64,000 bases of DNA from Halichondria panicea (Eukaryota > Porifera > Demospongiae > Suberitida > Halichondriidae), in assembly GCF_963675165.1 (NCBI RefSeq), contig NC_087377.1:4464042-4528041 (forward strand). The letters run 5' to 3'. Shown one piece after another: positions 3,174-59,800 of the stretch (position 1 is its first letter; each line of letters starts with the position of its first letter). The position numbers were made by a program, and so were the translations under genes. Under the pieces are notes generated by a model. The model was not told the DNA's origin, did no database searches, and saw nothing but the letters and a program-made list of their open reading frames with translations.

Positions 3174-6100
3174 ATGTATACTTTCTATCTACATCTACAT
3201 GTACAGGATTCTCGTCATCTAAAAAAAGGCAATAGTAACGGTCTCTTTAGGCGGTACAGATATTTCAAGTGTGATAGAAACTGTGCTGTCTTTGTGTCTC
3301 TGGATAAGCTTGCTGCTAAACCACCTCACCAAGAGCCTGAAACAACTCACTTATTCAAAGCTAAAGCTGGTCAACATTTAGCTGTCCCTGAGGACCGAGA
3401 GGAGTTTGCCAATCCCCAGGATAAAAAGCACACTGCGAATATTAACTCAGCAGAGCTTGATCAGATAAGAGCTGCATTAAATGAAGACATAGACCTATCG
3501 AAGCAAAAGGAACTGTTGGATGCTTTCAATAAGGACTCGAAGAAGAAAGCTCAGCAAAACGAATCCAAAATAAATGTCCAACAACCTTCAGGGCAAGCAA
3601 GAGGTCACTTGATTAAAAAGCAACACTCATGGCATCCTGGAAGTGATCACACCTTATATGGTGAAAGAAAGGAATCCCCACAGAGATCTGCTACAAAAAT
3701 TCCAGTAGAACATGAGAGGGCACTTCCCATACACGCACATTCCATACAAAGGGGGCCTAGAAGTTACGCAAGAACTTATTCCCAACCGCTTACAAATCAA
3801 GACTACAACGCCTCAGTAGAAAACTCCAACCCCTACAACCAAATGGCCCCACAAAACACTGGAGAGCCAGACTATGTTAACAGAGACACAGTGGATCAAG
3901 ACTCAAGAAGTCAACAAAATCAACCGCTTCGCCTAAACCAATGGCAAAGTAACCCTGTGTACCCACAACAACCTGGTGCTGAGCACTATCAAAAAACGGA
4001 TCAGGAAATACCGTCTGGTCCAGAATATCCGAATATCCAACACCCTGGAGTCAAAAAACGTCAGTCTCATCATGATGCTCCACCACAAGTACCTCAAGAC
4101 AACGCCTTGGTAAGAAGCTCCAACCCATACAATCTGGCAGTGGATTCAACTGTTCAAGTGGCCTCTGCGAACCCGAATGACCCCCAGCACTATGAAGTGA
4201 TAAAGGGGACTGGAACTGTAGATGGAGTGGACGGTCAGGTGACTGGGATTGAAGTGGTAGGTATATCATTATTTTGCTTAATCATTTCCTCACAGGAGGA
4301 CTACATGGAATGGTGTACTGACGGAACATTTAAAGCCACAGGAGAGAAGCACTTCACCTGTAACTTTGAAAGAGGAATGCATTTCCCACAGGCTAGCCTT
4401 TGCCCCCACCAAAGGGTTGGACCTGTCTCTACACCACAAGCTGAACATGCTGCATCATCACATCGTGATCAAAATCGTGAGTAATTGATTATACTCCACA
4501 AATATATATAGCCAGTCTCAAGTTATAATCAGGATGGTTTCTATTCTATAGCTATACAAGTCCCAATGGAGGAACAATTGGACCGATTCATTGACGACCC
4601 CACTGAGCAAATGATGAGGTACATTGGAAACAGCCGTGGTATCCAGGGTCACCAAAACTCTTGCTACCTGGACTCTACTCTTTTTGGATTGTTTGCCCTC
4701 AGTGACATTTTTGACACTGTGTTCCTAGCACCAGACCAATCCATCATCACTGACCAGAACAGGAAACGTGTTGTCAACCTACTGTGGAAGGGAATCGTTA
4801 ATCCTCTCAGAAAGCAAGTTAATGGTGTGTGTATGTATTATGCTGTATACTTGTTATTTTTCAGGAATGGTGTGGTGAGGTTTGAGTCAGTGATGAAGAT
4901 GAGAAATGCTTTGGACGAACTCGGGAAAATGGAGGGAATCACTGAGAAGAAGAAAGGTGTTACTGTTTAATAGTGTATGTACGGTGTTGTGTTTAACTGT
5001 CTTTTAGATCCTGAGGAATTTTTAAACACGCTCTTCAAACATGTGCTTTACACGAAGCCATTCATCTCCATCAGGTACGTGTACGTGTATGTCTAGTGTG
5101 CACTGATGTACCGTATATCAGGTAATTTTCCTACTTGCAAATTTTTGTACGAACTATACCCATTTCGTATTTTTAATATTCGGACAGCTCAGGATAGTGA
5201 CGTAGAACCTATTGCCGTATAGAATAATTTCACAGTTTTAATTTTTAAATGGTATGCTCTATACAATACGAAAAATAGGCACCATACGAAAATAACCTGT
5301 TGTACGGTGTGTTAATTTATGCAGGCGTCCGCTTGGTGTGGAGCAAGAGTTCTTTGTCCAACTGTTTGTTGAGTATGATCCAAACCTCAGACTACCAAAC
5401 GTGGGAGACCTACTCAGGAGAATGTTCACAGAACAACGCATCTCATTCACAAAAGTATGTGGTTCAATTTATGTGCCCTCAAAGTTAGCTCAATATTCAA
5501 CTGTTTTTTCAGGTTCCCTCAAAACTTCTGATTCAAGTTTCTCGGTTTGGAAGAGAAATCCCAACATACAAGAAGATTGTTCCAGAGCTGAAACTGAACA
5601 TCAGAGAGTTGACTGACACCTACAAAAAAGGTAATAATGAAAGCACCGCGGGTGCTGATGCCTCGGTGGAGATGCCAAAACTACGTAACATAAAGCTACT
5701 AATAGCTTTTATACACATGAGGAACATTTTTGTTTTGCTGCATGCAAACTCAGAGTGGGTAATGATCGACCATGATTGTTGTTAAAAACGATCGATGCCA
5801 AAAGCTAAAATAATAGCTGCCTTGCAGCTCTCTTCTTATACTCTTGCAGCTACCAATAGCTAGCGTTTTAGTGCAGAGCTAACTACTAAGTAGAGTAGCA
5901 ACACTCGGTAAACAAGTTTGGCTACGTGCTCTTCTGAAAAGGCTGCAATGGCATTCCAAGTAAGCAAAACTAGGCATAACTCGAGAACGAAGCATTATTT
6001 TGCAAATCCACGAATTAAAATCTAAGTAAACATGACTAGAAGCCTATAGAAACTCTTACTTGCATTTGATTCATCCTTGAGCAGCTGTAGCAGTCTATAT

Positions 6101-8112
6101 ACACACACACACAGACACACAAACACACTACCGTATACCTCGCTTGCGCATGCATGCGCACCGAGGCATAATTATAGGATATCCTTGTATCTTGTACTGT
6201 ACAGGTATATCCATTATTCTCCAGCTCCACCCTGCCTTTCTTGTGGGGAGGAGTCAGCTATCAAGTGTGAGATTTGTGGTTTTCTCAGTCAGCAACAGTT
6301 TACCCACTACTGCCAGCGCTGCTCAGACCTATTCCACAATCCTTCCTACAAAGACAAAGTGCAACACAGACTAACTGCTGTTGTTGTTACTGCTACTCCA
6401 GGGGATGATCCTGGCCTGGCTGAGTTGGACCTCCTCTCTGTGATCTGCATTGAGACCAGTCACTACGTCTGCTTCACTAGAGACCCAAGAGATAAAAACC
6501 CAAAAAAGTGGATCTTTTTGGACAGTATGGCCGACAGACAATGTGAGTCAGCCTGCACTAATTGAGTCTTGTTTACACTTAAAACATGTTTGTGTGTACA
6601 GTTGACACGTACAACATTCCACGTGTGACTGACTGCACTCGTGAGCTGAATGAGTGGGTGTATGAGGGAGACCAGGACAGGTTGATCAACACACCACCAA
6701 GAAAGCTACCAGAGTTGGTCCGACGGTTCACTCAAGACATCTACATGTGTGTCTATGTTCAGCCTGATATTGCCATGTATGGAGATGGTGATGAAGCTTC
6801 AACTTCAGTTAAGGAGTTGACTGCAGTCAGTAAGAGGAAATGTTAAAGTATAAGTACAATTAATCAAACATTGCCTTTTCTAGGTGTTGTCCCAACAATG
6901 TCCGAGGAGAGCAAGGATGACATCGTTGAGGAGCTTAAACAAGAAATCACTTCTCTTCAGGTAGAAAACAGAAATCTTCAACAGAGAATCGAAACCAATC
7001 AGGCCGAGCAGTCTCAACATATCCAACTATTGGAAGCTGAAAAGCAACAGTTGTTACAACGATACAATGAGCGAGAACGTACCACCTCTCAAGAAATGGC
7101 CGAGAAAGAAGAGCAAATACAACATCACAAAATGGAAAAGCAACAATCAGATAATGAAAAGCTCGAACTGGAAAGGCGGAAGAAGTACCACAAAGCTCAA
7201 TCAAAGCGCTACCAACAACAGGCTCAGGACATGCAACGAAGGCTAGAGGTGGCAGAAAGTAAAACAAGTCAGTCAAAGTTTTCTAAGCTCCAAATTCCGC
7301 GACTAGACCAAGACTCGTGGAATGTACGAAGACATGAAGTTGTGTTACAAGACAAGCTAGGACATGGTGCTTGGGGATCAGTGTGTCGAGGGCTGTTCTG
7401 TGGTCAGCAAGTAGCAGTAAAGTGTGCACACACAAAAATACTCCACAAAAACACGATTGATCAGCTCAAGAGAGAGATTCGAATCATGGCTCATGTTCAA
7501 CACCCCAACCTGGTGCGACTGATTGCTGCTGTAGTGGACGCTGGTGTGGAGAGAGGTACTGACTCACCTCTGCTTGTTCTGGAGTTTCTTGACACTGACC
7601 TTCGATCCGCTTACGAAACGAAAATTGTCAATTTCCAAAAGGATGCTTTGTTATCGATATTTCGAGAGGTGGCTTATGCCCTCCACTACCTTCACGAGTA
7701 TCAAGAGCCCATCATCCACCGTGATGTGAGTGCTCCCAACGTCCTCCTCCAGCAAATACACCCAGGAGTTTGGAAGGCAAAACTATCTGACTTTGGATCA
7801 GCCAATCTGGTCAAGCACAGTAAAACACCGGCCCCTGGAGCTATAATCTACTCTGCCCCTGAAACCTTCCCGTCAAGGGTTGTTCAGAAACAAACAACAA
7901 AGATTGATGTGTACAGCTACGGCTACCTTCTCGTTGAGGCCATTGCCAAAGAAATGCCTTCCGATGATGAAAAGGAAACATTGTTGCTCAAAATCAAGAC
8001 TGAGTGGGTGGACATGTACAACGTAATAACGGCATGCACTGCATACGAGCAAGAGGACAGACTCACAATGACTCAAGTCCTTGAAAAACTCAATAAGCTA
8101 CCTTCTCACTAA
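3174..8112 (+). CDS. CYLD: CYLD-type deubiquitinase fused to a coiled coil and protein kinase
   Basis: Exons: 3174 (or acceptor at 3207)-4256, 4296-4476, 4552-4813, 4865-4956, 5008-5074, 5325-5454, 5513-5630, 6225-6542, 6602-6829, 6884-8112. All phases agree and sum to 1236 codons. Visible domains: second half of CAP-Gly 1 (residues ~12-45), a low-complexity linker, CAP-Gly 2 (~315-400), and a CYLD-class USP domain. The likely catalytic residues are Cys459 (NSCYLDS), His724 (ETSHYV) and Asp744 (FLDSMADR). A B-box-like zinc module of Cys/His pairs lies at ~648-692. Normal CYLD proteins end just after the motif YMCVYVQP. Here splicing continues into a Gln/Glu-rich coiled coil (~840-965) and a kinase domain (~980-1230) with GHGAWG, VAVK (Lys1006), HRDVSAPN (Asp1107), DFG (1129) and APE. 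CYLD trims Lys63- and Met1-linked ubiquitin in NF-kB and cell-death signalling; the kinase target is unknown. The true N-terminus is probably upstream, since 3207 looks like a real acceptor. Confidence 0.85.
4814..4864 (+). other. GC-AG intron of the CYLD-like gene
   Basis: The donor reads AA|GCAAGT and the acceptor TTTTTCAG. The 51-bp intron has no stop and would add 17 residues if retained. The broken copy of this gene has a normal GTGAGT donor at exactly the homologous place (9368). Splicing at GC restores the phase-2 junction seen there. Read-through as coding sequence is the alternative. Confidence 0.65.
5636..6176. mobile_element. MITE in intron 7 of the CYLD-like gene
   Basis: The left end contains GCACCGCGGGTGCTGATGCC followed by TCGGTG; the right end is CGCACCGAGGCATAATTAT. 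A near-complete relative lies at 42203-42760. Fragments are seen at 49011-49135, 21580-21785, 9770-9850, 11446-11520 and 27150-27290. It carries a (CA)n tract near its right end (6101-6129). It supplies most of the length of this 594-bp intron. Confidence 0.7.
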
Positions 8113-8559
8113 CAATAACAATTGTGTGTTTGTGCATAGTATAGTGTAGTAACAGGAGTTAACTACTCAGCAGTTTTTAGCGTGTGTGCATTTAGAATGA
8201 TCACGATGATATCCTCTGGAATATTGCGTGGGCGTGTCTTGTAATGATTTTCGTACTCTATGTCTGGAAGATAACAGATTATATAGACAATGGATAAGCC
8301 TCTATTTGAAGAAACAGAGACGGCCTTCCAGGCAGTAGATCTAGGCTCCACAGTGCAAGTGGGGCAGCCTCCTCGCTATGGAGTGGTCAAGTAGTTGGGA
8401 ATGTTCCCAAGAGGCAGTGCCTGCGTGCCTGAGCCATGCGCCAATGGCCGGCTGGTATTGAGCTGGTAAGATACTGAATTATAATAGAGCTAGCTCTGTG
8501 TACGTGTGTATATGTGTGTGTGTGCATGTGTGTGTGTATGCAATGCGTCACTGTGACTA

Positions 8560-8778
8560 CCGTATTACTAGAATATTTTGCGGGTGAAAATCTTTGCGAA
8601 TGAGCCAAATCAGCAGAAAATTTGACCCTTTTCAATTAACTAGCTAGATACATGTATTGCGTTCGGGCAAGGATCGTGTGTATTTACTGTAGGTTTTGCG
8701 GATTTTATTGTTTCGAATTGATCAACCCTCGCAAAATTCACAAATGTTTAATTCTCGCAAAACATTCTAGTAATACGG
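8560..8778. mobile_element. MITE, CCGTATTACTAGAAT family, copy 1
   Basis: The termini CCGTATTACTAGAATATTTT and the inverted form ending CATTCTAGTAATACGG bound a 219-bp element with no coding content. It sits between two exon remnants of the CYLD-like pseudogene. Relatives occur at 9433-9642, 24115-24290, 26586-26665 (inverted, partial) and 43015-43125. Confidence 0.8.
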
Positions 8779-9432
8779 CCTACCTACCTGTGCTCTCCTC
8801 ACAGGATGGGTACTGGCCTAAGGATTGTGGGGACGGATCATTTGAGGGACATAGCTACTTTACTTGTGAGCATGGCCATGGATGGATACTTCCACCCTCT
8901 CAAGAATGTCCAACCAAATCAGAGCCTGGCCAATGACCCTGTACCTGCCATCATCTGGGGCAACAGCATGCCAGCCGAGAATCGTGAGCTCCATTCGTGT
9001 AATAAAAAATAAGTTACCAAGCATCGCAATTAGGTATAGTCAGGTGACATCGTAGGACATTGTGACATTAATTATCTATACATAAATCAAATGCATGACT
9101 TTCCCCCCCCCCCCCTCCAGCACTACAGGACCCCCTGGAGGAACTGGAGGAACAATCCACAACACCCCCTGCACAGGTCTATGTGGGGGAGAAGAGAGGG
9201 ATCCAGGGTCACTATAACTCCTCCTACATCGACTCTACCATCTTTGGTCTGTTTGCCCTCAGTGATGTCTTCAACACAATGTTCCTGGCACCAGACAAAG
9301 ATGCTCCGGCCAGCAGACAAGAGTTTAAGGACCTCCTCGCCAAAAAAATAATCAATCCTCTCAGAAAGTGAGTTGTATGTGTATGTGACCTTACTCCCAA
9401 CAACCATTTCTTCATGCTATAGTATCAGGCAT

Positions 9433-9642
9433 ACCGTATTAACTAGAATATTTTGCTGGTGAAAAACCTTTGCAAATGAGCCAAATCAGCAGAAAATTTG
9501 ACCCTTTGCGATCTAACTATTGCGTTCTGGCAAGGATCGTGTGTATTTACTAGTAATAATTTAGGTTTTGCGGATTTTATTGTTGCGAATTGAACAAAAT
9601 TCGCAAATGTTTGATGCTCGCAAAACAGTCTAGTAATACAGT
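9433..9642. mobile_element. MITE, CCGTATTACTAGAAT family, copy 2
   Basis: Same family and orientation as the copy at 8560-8778, sharing interior blocks such as GAGCCAAATCAGCAGAAAAT and GGCAAGGATCGTGTGTATTT. It lies between the third and fourth exon remnants of the CYLD-like pseudogene. Confidence 0.75.
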
Positions 9643-9761
9643 ATTCATTATTTAAGTAGATCTATTGACATTCATTATCAGGAATGGAGTAGTGAGGTTT
9701 GAGTCAGTGATGGAGCTGACGAGAATGATTGAGGACCTGAAGAGACAGCAACAGCCTTCAA

Positions 9762-25454: not shown

Positions 25455-26052
25455 TCTCGCGGGCCATACTCCACAATCTGATAGGGCTTAAATTCTGGGC
25501 AAACCAAGCTCAGGAAGAAGGGATTACTTTGTCATTTGTGCTGTATTATAAGAAGGCAGCAATCAAGGCTAAAAATCCAGCCTCTTGCTCTAGCTTTGCA
25601 TCTTGCCACGACGTGTTTGCTGATGCTTTCCTCCAAGCTTACAATTACCCAATTGGTAAAACTGGAAGGGACAAATTAGCACAAGATATCAAAAATAAAG
25701 CTAATGCTGATGGTGCTTTCCTTGCTTTCTTCTCTAAGTACAGGCAAAGCCATTTCGCGTATGCGACAGCAGGTGGCGGACCTACATACATGCAGTACAG
25801 CAATGACGGTTGGGGGACCAATCAGATTGACAGGGTTTTTGCTCATGAAACTGGACATGTTTTTAACGCTCCGGACGAATACGGAAATGGCTGTTGTTGC
25901 GAAAAATTGTATGGCAAGGGAAGCTGCACTGCTAAAAATTCCAACTGCAGGACCTGCACTTCTGTTCAAACTAGCTGCATTATGGAAAATAATAATCTGA
26001 GCAACATTTGCGAGAGCAGCAAGAAACACGTGGGTTGGTGCTCTGAGGCTTA
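25455..26052 (+). pseudogene. C-terminal zinc-protease domain, 5' truncated
   Basis: An open frame of about 199 codons runs up to the edge of the adjacent transposon, so no start codon is assigned. It contains GLKFWANQAQEEG, ATAGGGPTYMQYSNDGWG and the zinc-binding motif VFAHETGHVFNAPDEYG (HExxH with downstream Asp/Glu), then a Cys-rich tail. The protease domain seems intact, but it has no N-terminus or signal peptide here. The N-terminal half of a gene that appears to be of the same family, from memory, lies at 18581-19491 on the other strand. It could still be expressed from an upstream exon I cannot see. Confidence 0.6.
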
Positions 26053-26436
26053 AGGAATATTTCTGGACTGCTTTACGGACTTGACTTATACCTCGTGTAG
26101 ATATAACTATAGATTATAGTTGAGTATAAGCTACAGTTTATTTTATGCGTACCCTCATGCAGTCTCCCCTCTTTATTATAACCATGCAGACATCACTATA
26201 GCGTTGCTATTTGTCTGGCACTCAACATTGCGTATGCGCATAACTCGCAGAGTGCATGTCCATTAGGCCTGTGCCAAATATTCCGGAATAATTATTAAAT
26301 ACAGAGGTTTTCAGGTTGGTTGACTATAGTGACTGTGAAATAAACAAAGCATGCGCATAGCTAGAGTCCACCCAGCTACTTCAACCTTTCAATAAACTTA
26401 CGAAATTCAAAAACTTAAAAACAAGATGCCGATTTA

Positions 26437-40594: not shown

Positions 40595-41189
40595 TTATTC
40601 TCGAGCCATGCTCTGGCCTCCGGGTCCTGACAGCTCCTACAGGGGCCAAAGAAAAACAGTTTTAAAAGCCAGCAGGCGAAACTGTACATTCATAAATTGT
40701 ATACAAGTTGCTATATCAAAATGCATAACACACAACAGTTTAAAGCTGCAGTTACAATATACAAGGAGAATACTCAACTCTGCGAGACAATTCAGACAAG
40801 CAGCACAATCACTTACCCTAGACTCCTGCACCAGAGCACAGAGGTCACAGAACAGGACACACAAGAGATCCTTGATACATGAGCCTTCGATTCCCTTCTG
40901 CTCCCTGATCTTTCCACGGATCTGAGTTCTGCACCAAAAGTTAAGAATTGGGACGAAGTAGGAGAGTCCGTACATAACGCAGTTCTCGCCGAGTTGTTCA
41001 GCATTCTTTCCGAAGGTGTAGCATGGCACAAACCATGTGATGATACCTGCAACAAAGAAAGAGCACTGAGAACTGCAAAAACTTGCGAAAATATGCAAAT
41101 AAAATTCGATAAAAATTTTACGGCTGCAACTCACAGGTGGAGAAGTCCTCAAAGCAGGAGCAGAGTCCGTTAGACCAGTCGTTCGACAT
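40595..41189 (-). CDS. PLAC8-family cysteine-rich protein A
   Basis: Exons 41135-41189, 40817-41046 and 40595-40636 give 108 residues. The start encodes MSNDWSNGLCSCFEDFSTC; the core has VPCYTFGKNAEQLGENCVMY, RTQIRGKIREQKGIEGS and FCDLCALVQESR. The Cys-rich pattern and the QE-x-R element are those of PLAC8 (DUF614) proteins, small membrane-associated proteins with roles ranging from metal tolerance to cell growth in other organisms. The function here is unknown. It ends in the sequence SMARE, shared by its three neighbours. Exons 1 and 2 join in phase 1. Confidence 0.88.
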
Positions 41190-41542
41190 GATGAATCGGT
41201 TTGTTCAAGTGTTTTGAAGAGAGCTGAAAATTGTTGCTTGAAGACGGTGAAAGAAACTTCAGACTGAGTAAAACAGGTGGATTTCTGCAGTATACCTACA
41301 GCTAGAAACGCCCCACAGTCCGCCACACCCAACATTTTTGCACAGAAATCCTAGCAACAGCCAATCAGATTGCAAGCTCATGAACTTACTATGCAGCATG
41401 CCGTTGGCTATGATTATTTATTTTACTGTGTGGCGTGTTAGTGGTTACCGTGTGTGTCTGCAAATGCTACAGAGATAAAAACAACGATTAATGTCACGAT
41501 TATTACCCTACAAGTCGAGGGTACTGCAATGATTAGTGAAAA

Positions 41543-56831: not shown

Positions 56832-59800
56832 ATGAATGTGCTATATTTTGCTATTCTACTGTCTGCTTTGACATCATGGAGTTATGCTGTGGAAACTCAA
56901 GGTGATAAGTTATAGTAAAAACTTTGATCAGTGGATTAATTTTTGTTATGTCAGAATTAAGTTTTATAATTATTATTGTGTACTGTATGCATGCATGTGG
57001 TAATCTATGTAGTTTGATATAACGTTCTCTCTTGCAGATGTGATTTCGAGGACTACAGGCAATTCTTTTGTCGTTGCTTTCTCAAGGAATGGCTTTCCTC
57101 TTGCCGATCTTGATATAAATGAAGATCTAAATCTATCTTTATTCATCACGACCACTGAATCGAGTCCTGTTAGTTTCAGCGTTACTGGAAACGGATTCAA
57201 TTTTGATGGCATTGTGTCATCAAATGTATCGACTCAAGTTAGTATCCCGCGTAGGTTCGAAGTTCTATTTCCTAACAATACGGAACATGGTCTGCTAGTC
57301 CAAGCTGAAGGAAATAATACAATCAATGTTCTTGGAATTTCTTATCACGAAGTTACTGCTGATGCTTACTTGGCCCTTCCTGGTGAGGTAATGCCAGTAG
57401 ATTTGTATGAGTACTATGCAATCTCGTACCCTGTTCAAGTCCTTCAAACAGTCCAACCCCCCAGCTTTATTCTACTGGTAGCCGCTGAAGATGACACTTT
57501 TGTCAGAACACCTTCGTTGAATATAACACTCAACAGACTAGAAACGTATCAAATACTCAGTTTAAACGACCTGACAGGAACGAGGATAATTAGTTCCAAA
57601 CCTATCTCAGTTCTTAGCGGTAATGATTGCGCTGTTGTACCTGTTGATAATATTACCGAAACATGCAACCATCTAATCGAGGAAATACCACCGACCGTAA
57701 CTTGGGGCACACAATTTCTTGTTTCGTCGTTTTTAAGCCGTCTATCTGGTGATTTTATTCGTGTTATGAGTGTCCGTGAATCAGTAGTGAATGTCACCTG
57801 TGTACCTAGTACTCCTCCTATATCCCAGTTTGTATTAGACGGTGGTGGAAGTTTCGCTGAATTTGAAATTCTTCCAGGCAGCTTTTGCAGTTTTGCAGCA
57901 TCTTCTCCAGTGCTTGTAACTCAGTACGCATTGCATAATTCCATTGATGGAGTTGGTGATTCGTCTATGATGATAATACCGTCAGTTGAACAGTACACAA
58001 ATAACTTTGTTTTCGAATCTTTTTCGAATTTTTCATCCAATTTCATCAACATGTATGTTACGTCTGAGTTTTATCAGCCTGAGCAAATTTTCATCGATGG
58101 CTCTTCCGTCGCTGATTGGACGCAGGTGGCCTGTCCTAATGACAATACAGTTTGTGGCTATATATCAAGAATGAATGTGAATGCTGGAACACATTCTCTC
58201 TACCACCAAAACAGTTCTGCACGTTTGGGACTGTCAGTGTATGGATTTGCACACCATAATGCTTATGCTTACCCTGGAGGTATGAGACTGTCCCCCATAC
58301 AGTGTGACTGTGAACCTGGGATATTTTGCTTGAATAATAACGGACAATTTGACTGTGGCTGTGCAGAGGGTTTCCAAGGCAATGGATTGAATTGTACAGG
58401 TGAGTGAGTACTTGACGGCACCGATGCTAACAGCTAGGATATCACAATTGTAATGTGTGTGCATGTTTGATTAACATACGTACGTAGGGATCGATTTCAT
58501 GACTATGTATATAGTAATGTACACAAAATGAAGTATTTTATTCTAACAGATGTGACTCCAAATATATCCTTGCTACTGGACAATGTGCTGAGTCAGCACG
58601 GTGTGAGAGAGTTGGAGAGTGGTATATACAGTGTTGGATACGGGCATACGTTTGGTGTGACCTGCCAGACTAACAACTTTGCTAGAGCGGAGTGGAGACT
58701 ACGGAGAGACATGAGCTTAGGTGAGGAATAACTCATTACTGCATGTATAGCAGTGATGTCCACACACTTTTTAAAGTGGCTATTTTCAATGCTCAATAAT
58801 CTCAATACAACACACACGTTAAATTTGCCGTAATGCAAAACTTTACCCAACAAAGCCTCCTAGTTTTTATTACTGGTTGTTAGCATTAATTCTTAGATCT
58901 GTACGTAGCAATTAAACTATATAGGCCTGCATTTGTAAGAGGTGGTTATTTTTGTCTAGGTAGCACCAACCACCACACTGAGAACAGTGTGGGCACATCC
59001 CTATACTGTAGTTCCCTCTATACACATAATGATGTATAATCCCTTTAATCATAATTATAACATCTTTTGAGCACCCATGGATACATAACTTTATACATAA
59101 CATTGTTTGTTCAGTTTTAATCTTGCTTTAGTTGAGGAGGAGAGAACAATTGAAACGGGAAACAGCTCTGGACTGTTGTACACTTATCGCGAGTCCGAAT
59201 CAAGGGTGGTGCTTCGAACTGCAATCTTTAACACTTTTACAGTTTCCCTAAATTTTGGACTACAAGATCCTGAGATAGGAGCTCATCATCGCTACATTTG
59301 TGTGGCTAACAATTCTGGTCTTACTGAGAGTCGCAGTGTGGAGATAGTTCCAACAGGTAACTTATTTATACATGTAATAGTTGTACATGTATTGGATTTG
59401 TAACCCGAGGGAATACATACAACGTACTGCACGAGGGTAAACAAATCCAATACACATGCAGATATATCCATGCATAGCACCCGCACTGGTTTTATTTAAA
59501 AGAGAGGGTCTTTAAAATGGTGGAGGGAGGGCCACAGCATGTACCCTATATATATAGGGTATAATTTTATGAGAGTACCGTAAGACCTCGATTTAAGGCG
59601 ACCCTCCAAATATGCGACACCCAGGAGCTTCAGCAATTTTCTGACCTCTAAAAGTAGTGACAGCTGCATTGACAATTATTTTTTAATGTCGCGTTCTAAA
59701 TAGAGGTAAATGTAGCCACTCCCTAGCCTCGATTGTAGCCCACTGGAAAATCAGTGTTTTTAAGCAGCCTGAAATCGAGGCAAGTAGACTCTGTAAAGTT

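Follow-up and report, generated by a model that had tools for sequence, protein, structure and literature searches.

The window described here, a stretch of 64,000 nucleotides from the sponge Halichondria panicea (C1:4464042-4528041), contains near its beginning a predicted gene in which a deubiquitinase of the CYLD type and a protein kinase appear to be encoded on one chain. Specifically, ten exons on the forward strand, between positions 3174 and 8112, join into a single open frame of 1,235 amino acids, whose predicted product carries pieces of CAP-Gly domains, a complete USP (ubiquitin-specific protease) domain, a coil-like stretch and finally a kinase domain. This frame requires a GC-AG donor at 4814, in intron 3, and an exon 8 start at 6225; given these two, the phases of the ten exons agree, as had been proposed in an earlier reading made from the letters alone (hereafter the original prediction). 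Coil assignments are judgements by eye throughout. The features of the gene, in positions of the window, are the following:

3174..4256, forward strand: exon 1, an open frame with a CAP_GLY match; the true exon start is probably 3207
4296..4476, forward strand: exon 2, second half of the CAP-Gly domain nearest the USP (model and paralogues)
4552..4813, forward strand: exon 3, start of the USP, with the catalytic Cys at 4662-4664 and the GC donor
4865..4956, forward strand: exon 4, USP (model)
5008..5074, forward strand: exon 5, USP (model)
5325..5454, forward strand: exon 6, USP (model)
5513..5630, forward strand: exon 7, USP (model)
6225..6542, forward strand: exon 8, zinc (B-box-like) module, with the catalytic His at 6461-6463 and the catalytic Asp at 6521-6523
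6602..6829, forward strand: exon 9, end of the USP and linker up to a phase-1 donor
6830..6883, forward strand: intron 9, 54 nucleotides
6884..8112, forward strand: exon 10, coil-like stretch and kinase domain, with the stop at 8110-8112

Exon 1 encodes the latter half of one CAP-Gly domain (Pfam residues 18-45, about 3225-3308) and the initial half of another, the one that adjoins the USP, together with a long low-complexity stretch. In exon 10 the coil-like stretch, at about 6904-7260, precedes the Pfam kinase match at about 7348-8082, in which the VAVK Lys lies at 7420-7422, the HRD Asp at 7723-7725 and the DFG Asp at 7789-7791, the Glu of the APE motif being present as well. When the joined protein is compared with Pfam, CAP_GLY (31.6 bits, in two stretches), UCH (27.0 bits) and Pkinase (123.8 bits, for a PF00069 curated cut-off of 31.7 bits) all score above their curated cut-offs. 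Among the sequences of the PDB, the USP part finds human CYLD as its best match (2vhf; query residues 4-368 of 372, E=1.4e-67), and only four sequences match up to 0.001, namely 2vhf, 3wxe, 3wxf and 3wxg, with no other USP among them. The last three bear the PDB name 'uncharacterized protein'; we take them to be fish CYLD. The window copy is described here as CYLD-like on the basis of its Cys/His/Asp triad, of a USP that is closest to CYLD and of six Cys of the zinc type. The deubiquitinase triad, the VAVK Lys, the HRD Asp and the DFG Asp were found at the places given for them in the original prediction, and the zinc-type Cys and the APE Glu named there are present as well.

Of the 2,062 distinct PDB sequences matched by the kinase part, the best 60, with E values from 8e-20 to 1e-15, include the TKL-type kinases MLK1/MAP3K9, IRAK4, TNNI3K and CTR1 together with roco4, and also chains of SNF1/AMPK, MARK and IKK-beta. 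TKL-like is the provisional best label for the predicted kinase, although the similarity is low, SNF1/AMPK and MARK score nearly equal to the top match (E 8.4e-20) and the catalytic loop, which reads HRDVSAPN in the window, differs from the HRDLK of TKL-type kinases. Considered together, positions 3174-8112 and an exon further upstream would form one gene, with CAP-Gly pieces, CYLD-type USP, coil-like stretch and TKL-like kinase on one predicted chain, a reading to which we assign a probability of about 0.88. Judged from sequence, this looks like a real, unusual family of signalling proteins and not like two genes misread as one.

Much of the evidence comes from relatives of the gene elsewhere in the genome, which measures 131 Mb. 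A search for the coil-kinase exon gave at least 105 matches (103 of 707 candidates scored), and a search for the USP gave 94, all of them on C1 and C9. The region C9:530001-640000 was examined, and 15 kinase-bearing regions were modelled with a splice-aware aligner; the query was the window's own model, and the recovery of the window exons is a sanity check only. In 11 of the 15 regions a CYLD-type USP is followed directly by the kinase exon, which makes 12 fused copies with that of the window, the single one seen in the original prediction. The claim that a CYLD deubiquitinase and a kinase reside in one predicted protein is in this way borne out both by the Pfam matches and by 11 further copies on C9, which are designated below by their position. 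The kinase exon is open over its full length (374-408 amino acids) in eight copies, namely the window, 540988, 548122, 556616, 571196, 576663, 591627 and 620172; that of 584248 is also open, and is of another kinase type. As for the residues expected in the two catalytic centres, the USP Cys occurs in 11 of the 12 fused copies (it was not recovered in 565235), and all 12 have the His, the Asp and the six Cys of the zinc type. On the kinase side the VAVK Lys is found in 11 of 12, with a gap in 609941, and all 12 have the Glu, the HRD Asp, the Asn and the DFG Asp; the DFG motif reads DLG in 584248. In 548122 the catalytic loop is HRDMSAPN.

Other loci of the same cluster show only parts of this arrangement. 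A kinase region without USP is present at 532742, and at 535349 some 1.7 kb separate the end of a CYLD from a kinase that is of another type. No USP is present in 603501 and 614284, where a CAP-Gly exon is joined straight to the same phase-1 acceptor and the resulting frames are open for 428 amino acids. CYLD copies without a kinase exon occur as well, and are located as follows:

C9:631620-633532: CYLD copy, no kinase exon within the following 500 nucleotides
C9:634906-637543: CYLD copy, no kinase exon within the following 500 nucleotides
C9:540308-538138: CYLD copy, no kinase exon within the following 500 nucleotides
8306..9761 of the window, forward strand: second, truncated CYLD copy without kinase, with Ser for the catalytic Cys at 9222-9224

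Four pieces of this second window copy are 79-94% identical to C9:634829-636016, which is part of a kinase-less CYLD gene.

The junction between USP and kinase is the point on which the single-gene reading depends. In the window, the donor GTAAGA beginning at 6830 and the acceptor TTTTCTAG ending at 6883 join in phase 1, both located exactly as claimed. In-phase joinability at a single locus is weak evidence, and the strength of the argument comes from the 11 other copies. In particular, the distance from the YVQ codon to the homologous donor takes seven different lengths (46, 49, 67, 82, 85, 88 or 94 nucleotides), all of them 1 modulo 3, and the distance from the acceptor to the E(S/N)KDD codon is 14, 23 or 29 nucleotides, all 2 modulo 3. 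Both regularities hold in 12 of 12 copies; in other words, the junction has phase 1 on both sides in every copy. Nine copies have retained the homologous acceptor; their intron measures 43-54 nucleotides, and all three values modulo 3 occur among its lengths. A linker of 1 modulo 3 would by itself indicate coding up to the donor only, and the argument needs the phase on the kinase side and the variable intron in addition. These distances were measured with the homologous donor and acceptor, not with the donor preferred by the aligner. The occurrence of any in-phase join whatsoever was dropped as a test, as a permissive search yields several such joins in most copies. In addition, residues like the VVPT that stands upstream of the window ATG at 6898 recur in most copies, and no ATG is found within 15 nucleotides 5' of the coil match in 6 of the 11 C9 copies. 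Because the linker phase, the matching phase of the kinase exon, the residues 5' of the ATG and the missing ATG coincide, the comparison argues for a translation that crosses the join.

At the 5' end the gene model required correction. The original prediction placed the start at 3174, and this probably does not hold: the DNA homology between the window and the C9 copies begins at 3198-3203, adjoining an acceptor-like CATGTACAG, and several C9 copies have an in-frame stop just 5' of the homologous point. On C9 the exon-1 CAP-Gly domain has its first half in a separate exon about 50 nucleotides upstream, which tblastn finds 5' of 10 of the 11 fused copies, 609941 being the exception. The same tblastn search did not find this upstream CAP-Gly exon anywhere inside the window. 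A search of the whole genome then gives a match of 76% identity on the same strand at C1:4459940-4460146, that is, about 3.9 kb 5' of the first base of the window and about 7.1 kb 5' of position 3207. Because the homology starts at 3198-3203 and an upstream exon match exists at C1:4459940-4460146, the ATG at 3174 is probably not where the protein starts; the gene would have at least one further upstream exon and seems to begin before the window does. A 5' truncation of the window copy was considered and dropped, the missing exon having been located at that position. The CAP-Gly count stands at two CAP_GLY stretches in the window model plus one half-exon match upstream of the window, for an N-terminus that is partly modelled. 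As a separate observation, the C9 copies show near window position 3337 an intron-like gap of several hundred bases at which the window is continuous, which suggests that an intron at about 3337 was lost in the window copy.

The pattern of substitutions provides information on whether the two halves are maintained. The ratio of non-synonymous to synonymous divergence (dN/dS) between the window and 620172 comes to 0.17 (0.11-0.26) for the USP and to 0.30 (0.20-0.44) for the kinase; the corresponding values are 0.22 and 0.32 against 576663, 0.30 and 0.33 against 548122, and 0.23 and 0.35 against 571196. As judged by these ratios, both predicted domains are under constraint. The synonymous divergence (dS) of three C9 pairs that span two USP types is 0.73-0.82 in the USP and 0.06-0.13 in the kinase. 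Since dS is far lower in the kinase than in the USP, the kinase exon is, on this measure, homogenised or copied between CYLD types. Moreover, in a tree the kinases of 584248, 535349, 603501 and 614284 group with two Kelch-type kinases at 100/100, under a long-branch warning, and tails seem to have been exchanged between heads. As for the origin of the family, the genome is very rich in one coil-kinase, whose exon was probably joined to a CYLD gene in phase 1. The kinase-less CYLD copies fit a CYLD ancestor that gained a tail; the USP tree does not resolve this, with 2 of its 13 inner branches starred, most forks open and human CYLD on a long branch, and it is compatible with one origin of the fusion as well as with several.

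Two further arrangements at these loci may be recorded. On the reverse strand, C9:535334-536900 combines a CAP-Gly half, a coil and a kinase of the Kelch type in one frame of 434 amino acids with no USP. At 603501 and 614284 (C9:603483-604597 and C9:614266-615380), the beginning of a CYLD-type coil is followed by a Kelch-type kinase, with CAP-Gly exons just upstream.

Several observations weigh against one fused gene, and each is best considered together with the alternative that it favours. One alternative is a pair of adjacent genes, in which CYLD would end at 6844-6846 and the kinase would be translated from the ATG at 6898, either from a promoter of its own or as a trans-spliced operon partner. 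The window copy permits this, as an in-frame TAA stands 14 nucleotides into intron 9 and the ATG has an A at -3, making a separate start possible there; the cluster also contains the CYLD copies without a nearby kinase exon, three of them on C9. To these points may be added that the aligner often favoured another in-phase donor 5' of the homologous one, and that 576663, 596931 and 620172 have lost the homologous acceptor and need another or read-through, for which an in-phase CAACAG would yield an intron of 57 nucleotides. A pair of genes is, however, difficult to reconcile with the 6 of 11 C9 copies that lack the ATG, with the recurrence of VVPT-like residues 5' of it, and with a gap of merely 43-57 nucleotides across which the phases agree in 12 of 12 copies. 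In 576663, moreover, the end of the USP, the linker, the coil and the kinase form one uninterrupted frame of 507 amino acids. This frame is supportive and not decisive, because an open linker of 41 codons arises by chance with a probability of about 0.09 (about 9% of random sequences of this length, drawn at the local composition, are free of stops, the choice of frame not being counted). Judged on the 11 C9 copies, the separate-gene and operon readings are very unlikely. A regulated switch, in which splicing of intron 9 gives the CYLD-kinase and its retention gives CYLD alone, is compatible with a fused gene and may be regarded as possible, if on the unlikely side. In its favour, retention in the window would lead to the stop at 6844-6846 and a CYLD-only product, and the unspliced gap shifts the frame in 7 of the 11 C9 copies; yet it leaves the frame open in 3 of the 11 (576663, 584248 and 596931) and places one stop in 620172, so that no common effect emerges.

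Other doubts concern the activity and the integrity of the protein. The kinase half could be catalytically silent and serve only for dimerisation or as a scaffold, since Ser replaces the usual Lys of the catalytic loop in every modelled copy, a substitution on which the original prediction is silent. Active LIM kinases likewise lack this Lys. As 11 of 12 copies retain the VAVK Lys, all 12 retain the Glu, the HRD Asp, the Asn and the DFG Asp, and the kinase domain is apparently under constraint, a silent kinase is improbable. The window copy could also be a decaying duplicate. Indeed, at least two of the 12 fused copies are damaged: a stop interrupts the modelled frame of 565235 and that of 596931, and odd splices are required to model 609941. 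In addition, the second copy of the window is truncated and has its Cys changed to Ser, and the exon that precedes 3207 is about 7.1 kb away here versus about 50 nucleotides in the C9 copies, which is unusual for the family. Against this, the window frame runs for 1,235 codons without a stop, and dN/dS lies at 0.17-0.35 over both domains in the comparisons with four C9 copies, which makes decay extremely unlikely.

If a fused gene is accepted, its product can be compared with known systems. According to PMC5796713, human CYLD has three CAP-Gly domains and prefers Lys63- and Met1-linked chains, and thereby disrupts kinase complexes; CYLD limits signalling by stripping ubiquitin chains where kinases assemble, for example on RIPK1 and TAK1. 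The same paper describes, for the CYLD of five species including Amphimedon, a deubiquitinating domain at the C-terminus. The window protein resembles animal CYLD in its CAP-Gly pieces and in its USP with zinc insert and Cys/His/Asp triad, but differs from it in that the CYLDs described there stop after the USP (PMC5796713), whereas the window protein is predicted to continue with a coil-like stretch and a kinase. A protein of the CYLD-kinase type was not found in the open-access literature searched, where the matches listed dealt with subjects such as cancer, inflammation, microRNA sponging, MALT1 cleavage and LRRK2 proximity. This is in line with the original prediction, which knew of no such fusion, and an earlier description elsewhere is possible.

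A working model may be sketched on these grounds. The CAP-Gly/USP half would bind and cut Lys63- or Met1-linked ubiquitin chains in the manner of CYLD, and the coil would pair the protein chains. The kinase might then phosphorylate the linker or the USP of its own pair, turning the protease down; alternatively, it might phosphorylate partners on the same ubiquitin scaffold. The outcome would be the removal of ubiquitin chains and phosphorylation at one place and time. This coupling of deubiquitination and phosphorylation within one predicted chain, the switch of the original prediction, is put forward tentatively, as conceivable rather than probable. If true, a natural protein with both activities would offer a ready test of the functional coupling between ubiquitin erasure and phosphorylation.

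The coil-kinase tail extends beyond the CYLD copies. Outside these, 23 of 85 kinase matches lie less than 2.5 kb downstream of a Neuralized domain on the same strand, and 9 of 50 Neuralized stretches are without a kinase match of this kind. At L036 (C3:468200-472700), the second part of a Neuralized domain, a coil and a kinase share one frame of 534 amino acids, and at two C9 loci Kelch repeats lie upstream of the kinase exon. Kelch heads are known from these two loci only, in a Kelch_1 search that scored 150 of 1,151 candidates and was dominated by other Kelch genes. The coil-kinase tail of the Neuralized and Kelch loci is 37-41% identical to that of the window (three loci). These genes of the same genome thus resemble the window gene in a related tail and in an identical order of head, coil and kinase, and differ from it in that the head is not a deubiquitinase. 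Neuralized and Kelch domains occur in ubiquitin ligases and their adaptors. On C9, 36 of the 50 non-CYLD kinase matches flank the CYLD cluster on its two sides, at positions 177-532 kb (19 matches) or 640-890 kb (17 matches) of the contig.

A broader proposal would be that the coil-kinase tail has been combined and recombined with CYLD, Neuralized and Kelch heads, which come from both the erasing and the ligase side of ubiquitin control, that each of the resulting proteins turns a ubiquitin event into phosphorylation on a single chain, and that the clusters diversify as an immune-type family. We regard this as speculative and rather unlikely to hold in full. A kinase tail that serves behind CYLD, Neuralized and Kelch heads alike would show how ubiquitin signalling is rewired by exon joining in an animal lineage.

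Open frames containing Kelch repeats, mostly of about 310-320 amino acids, were also seen in arrays at C1:15.5-17.4 Mb and C6:0.46-0.80 Mb. Among six loci of the cathepsin L type in the genome, four, each a different gene, yielded a legible active-site motif, which was CGSCW every time and never silicatein-like, while the other two yielded none; this result speaks neither for nor against a sponge. Within the window itself, three further frames lie away from the CYLD-kinase gene:

25529-26053: open frame resembling M7 metallopeptidases (PF02031 above its cut-off, reprolysin below)
40637-41335, reverse strand: frame of the PLAC8 family
57040-58407, forward strand: frame of 455 amino acids with an IgGFc_binding domain

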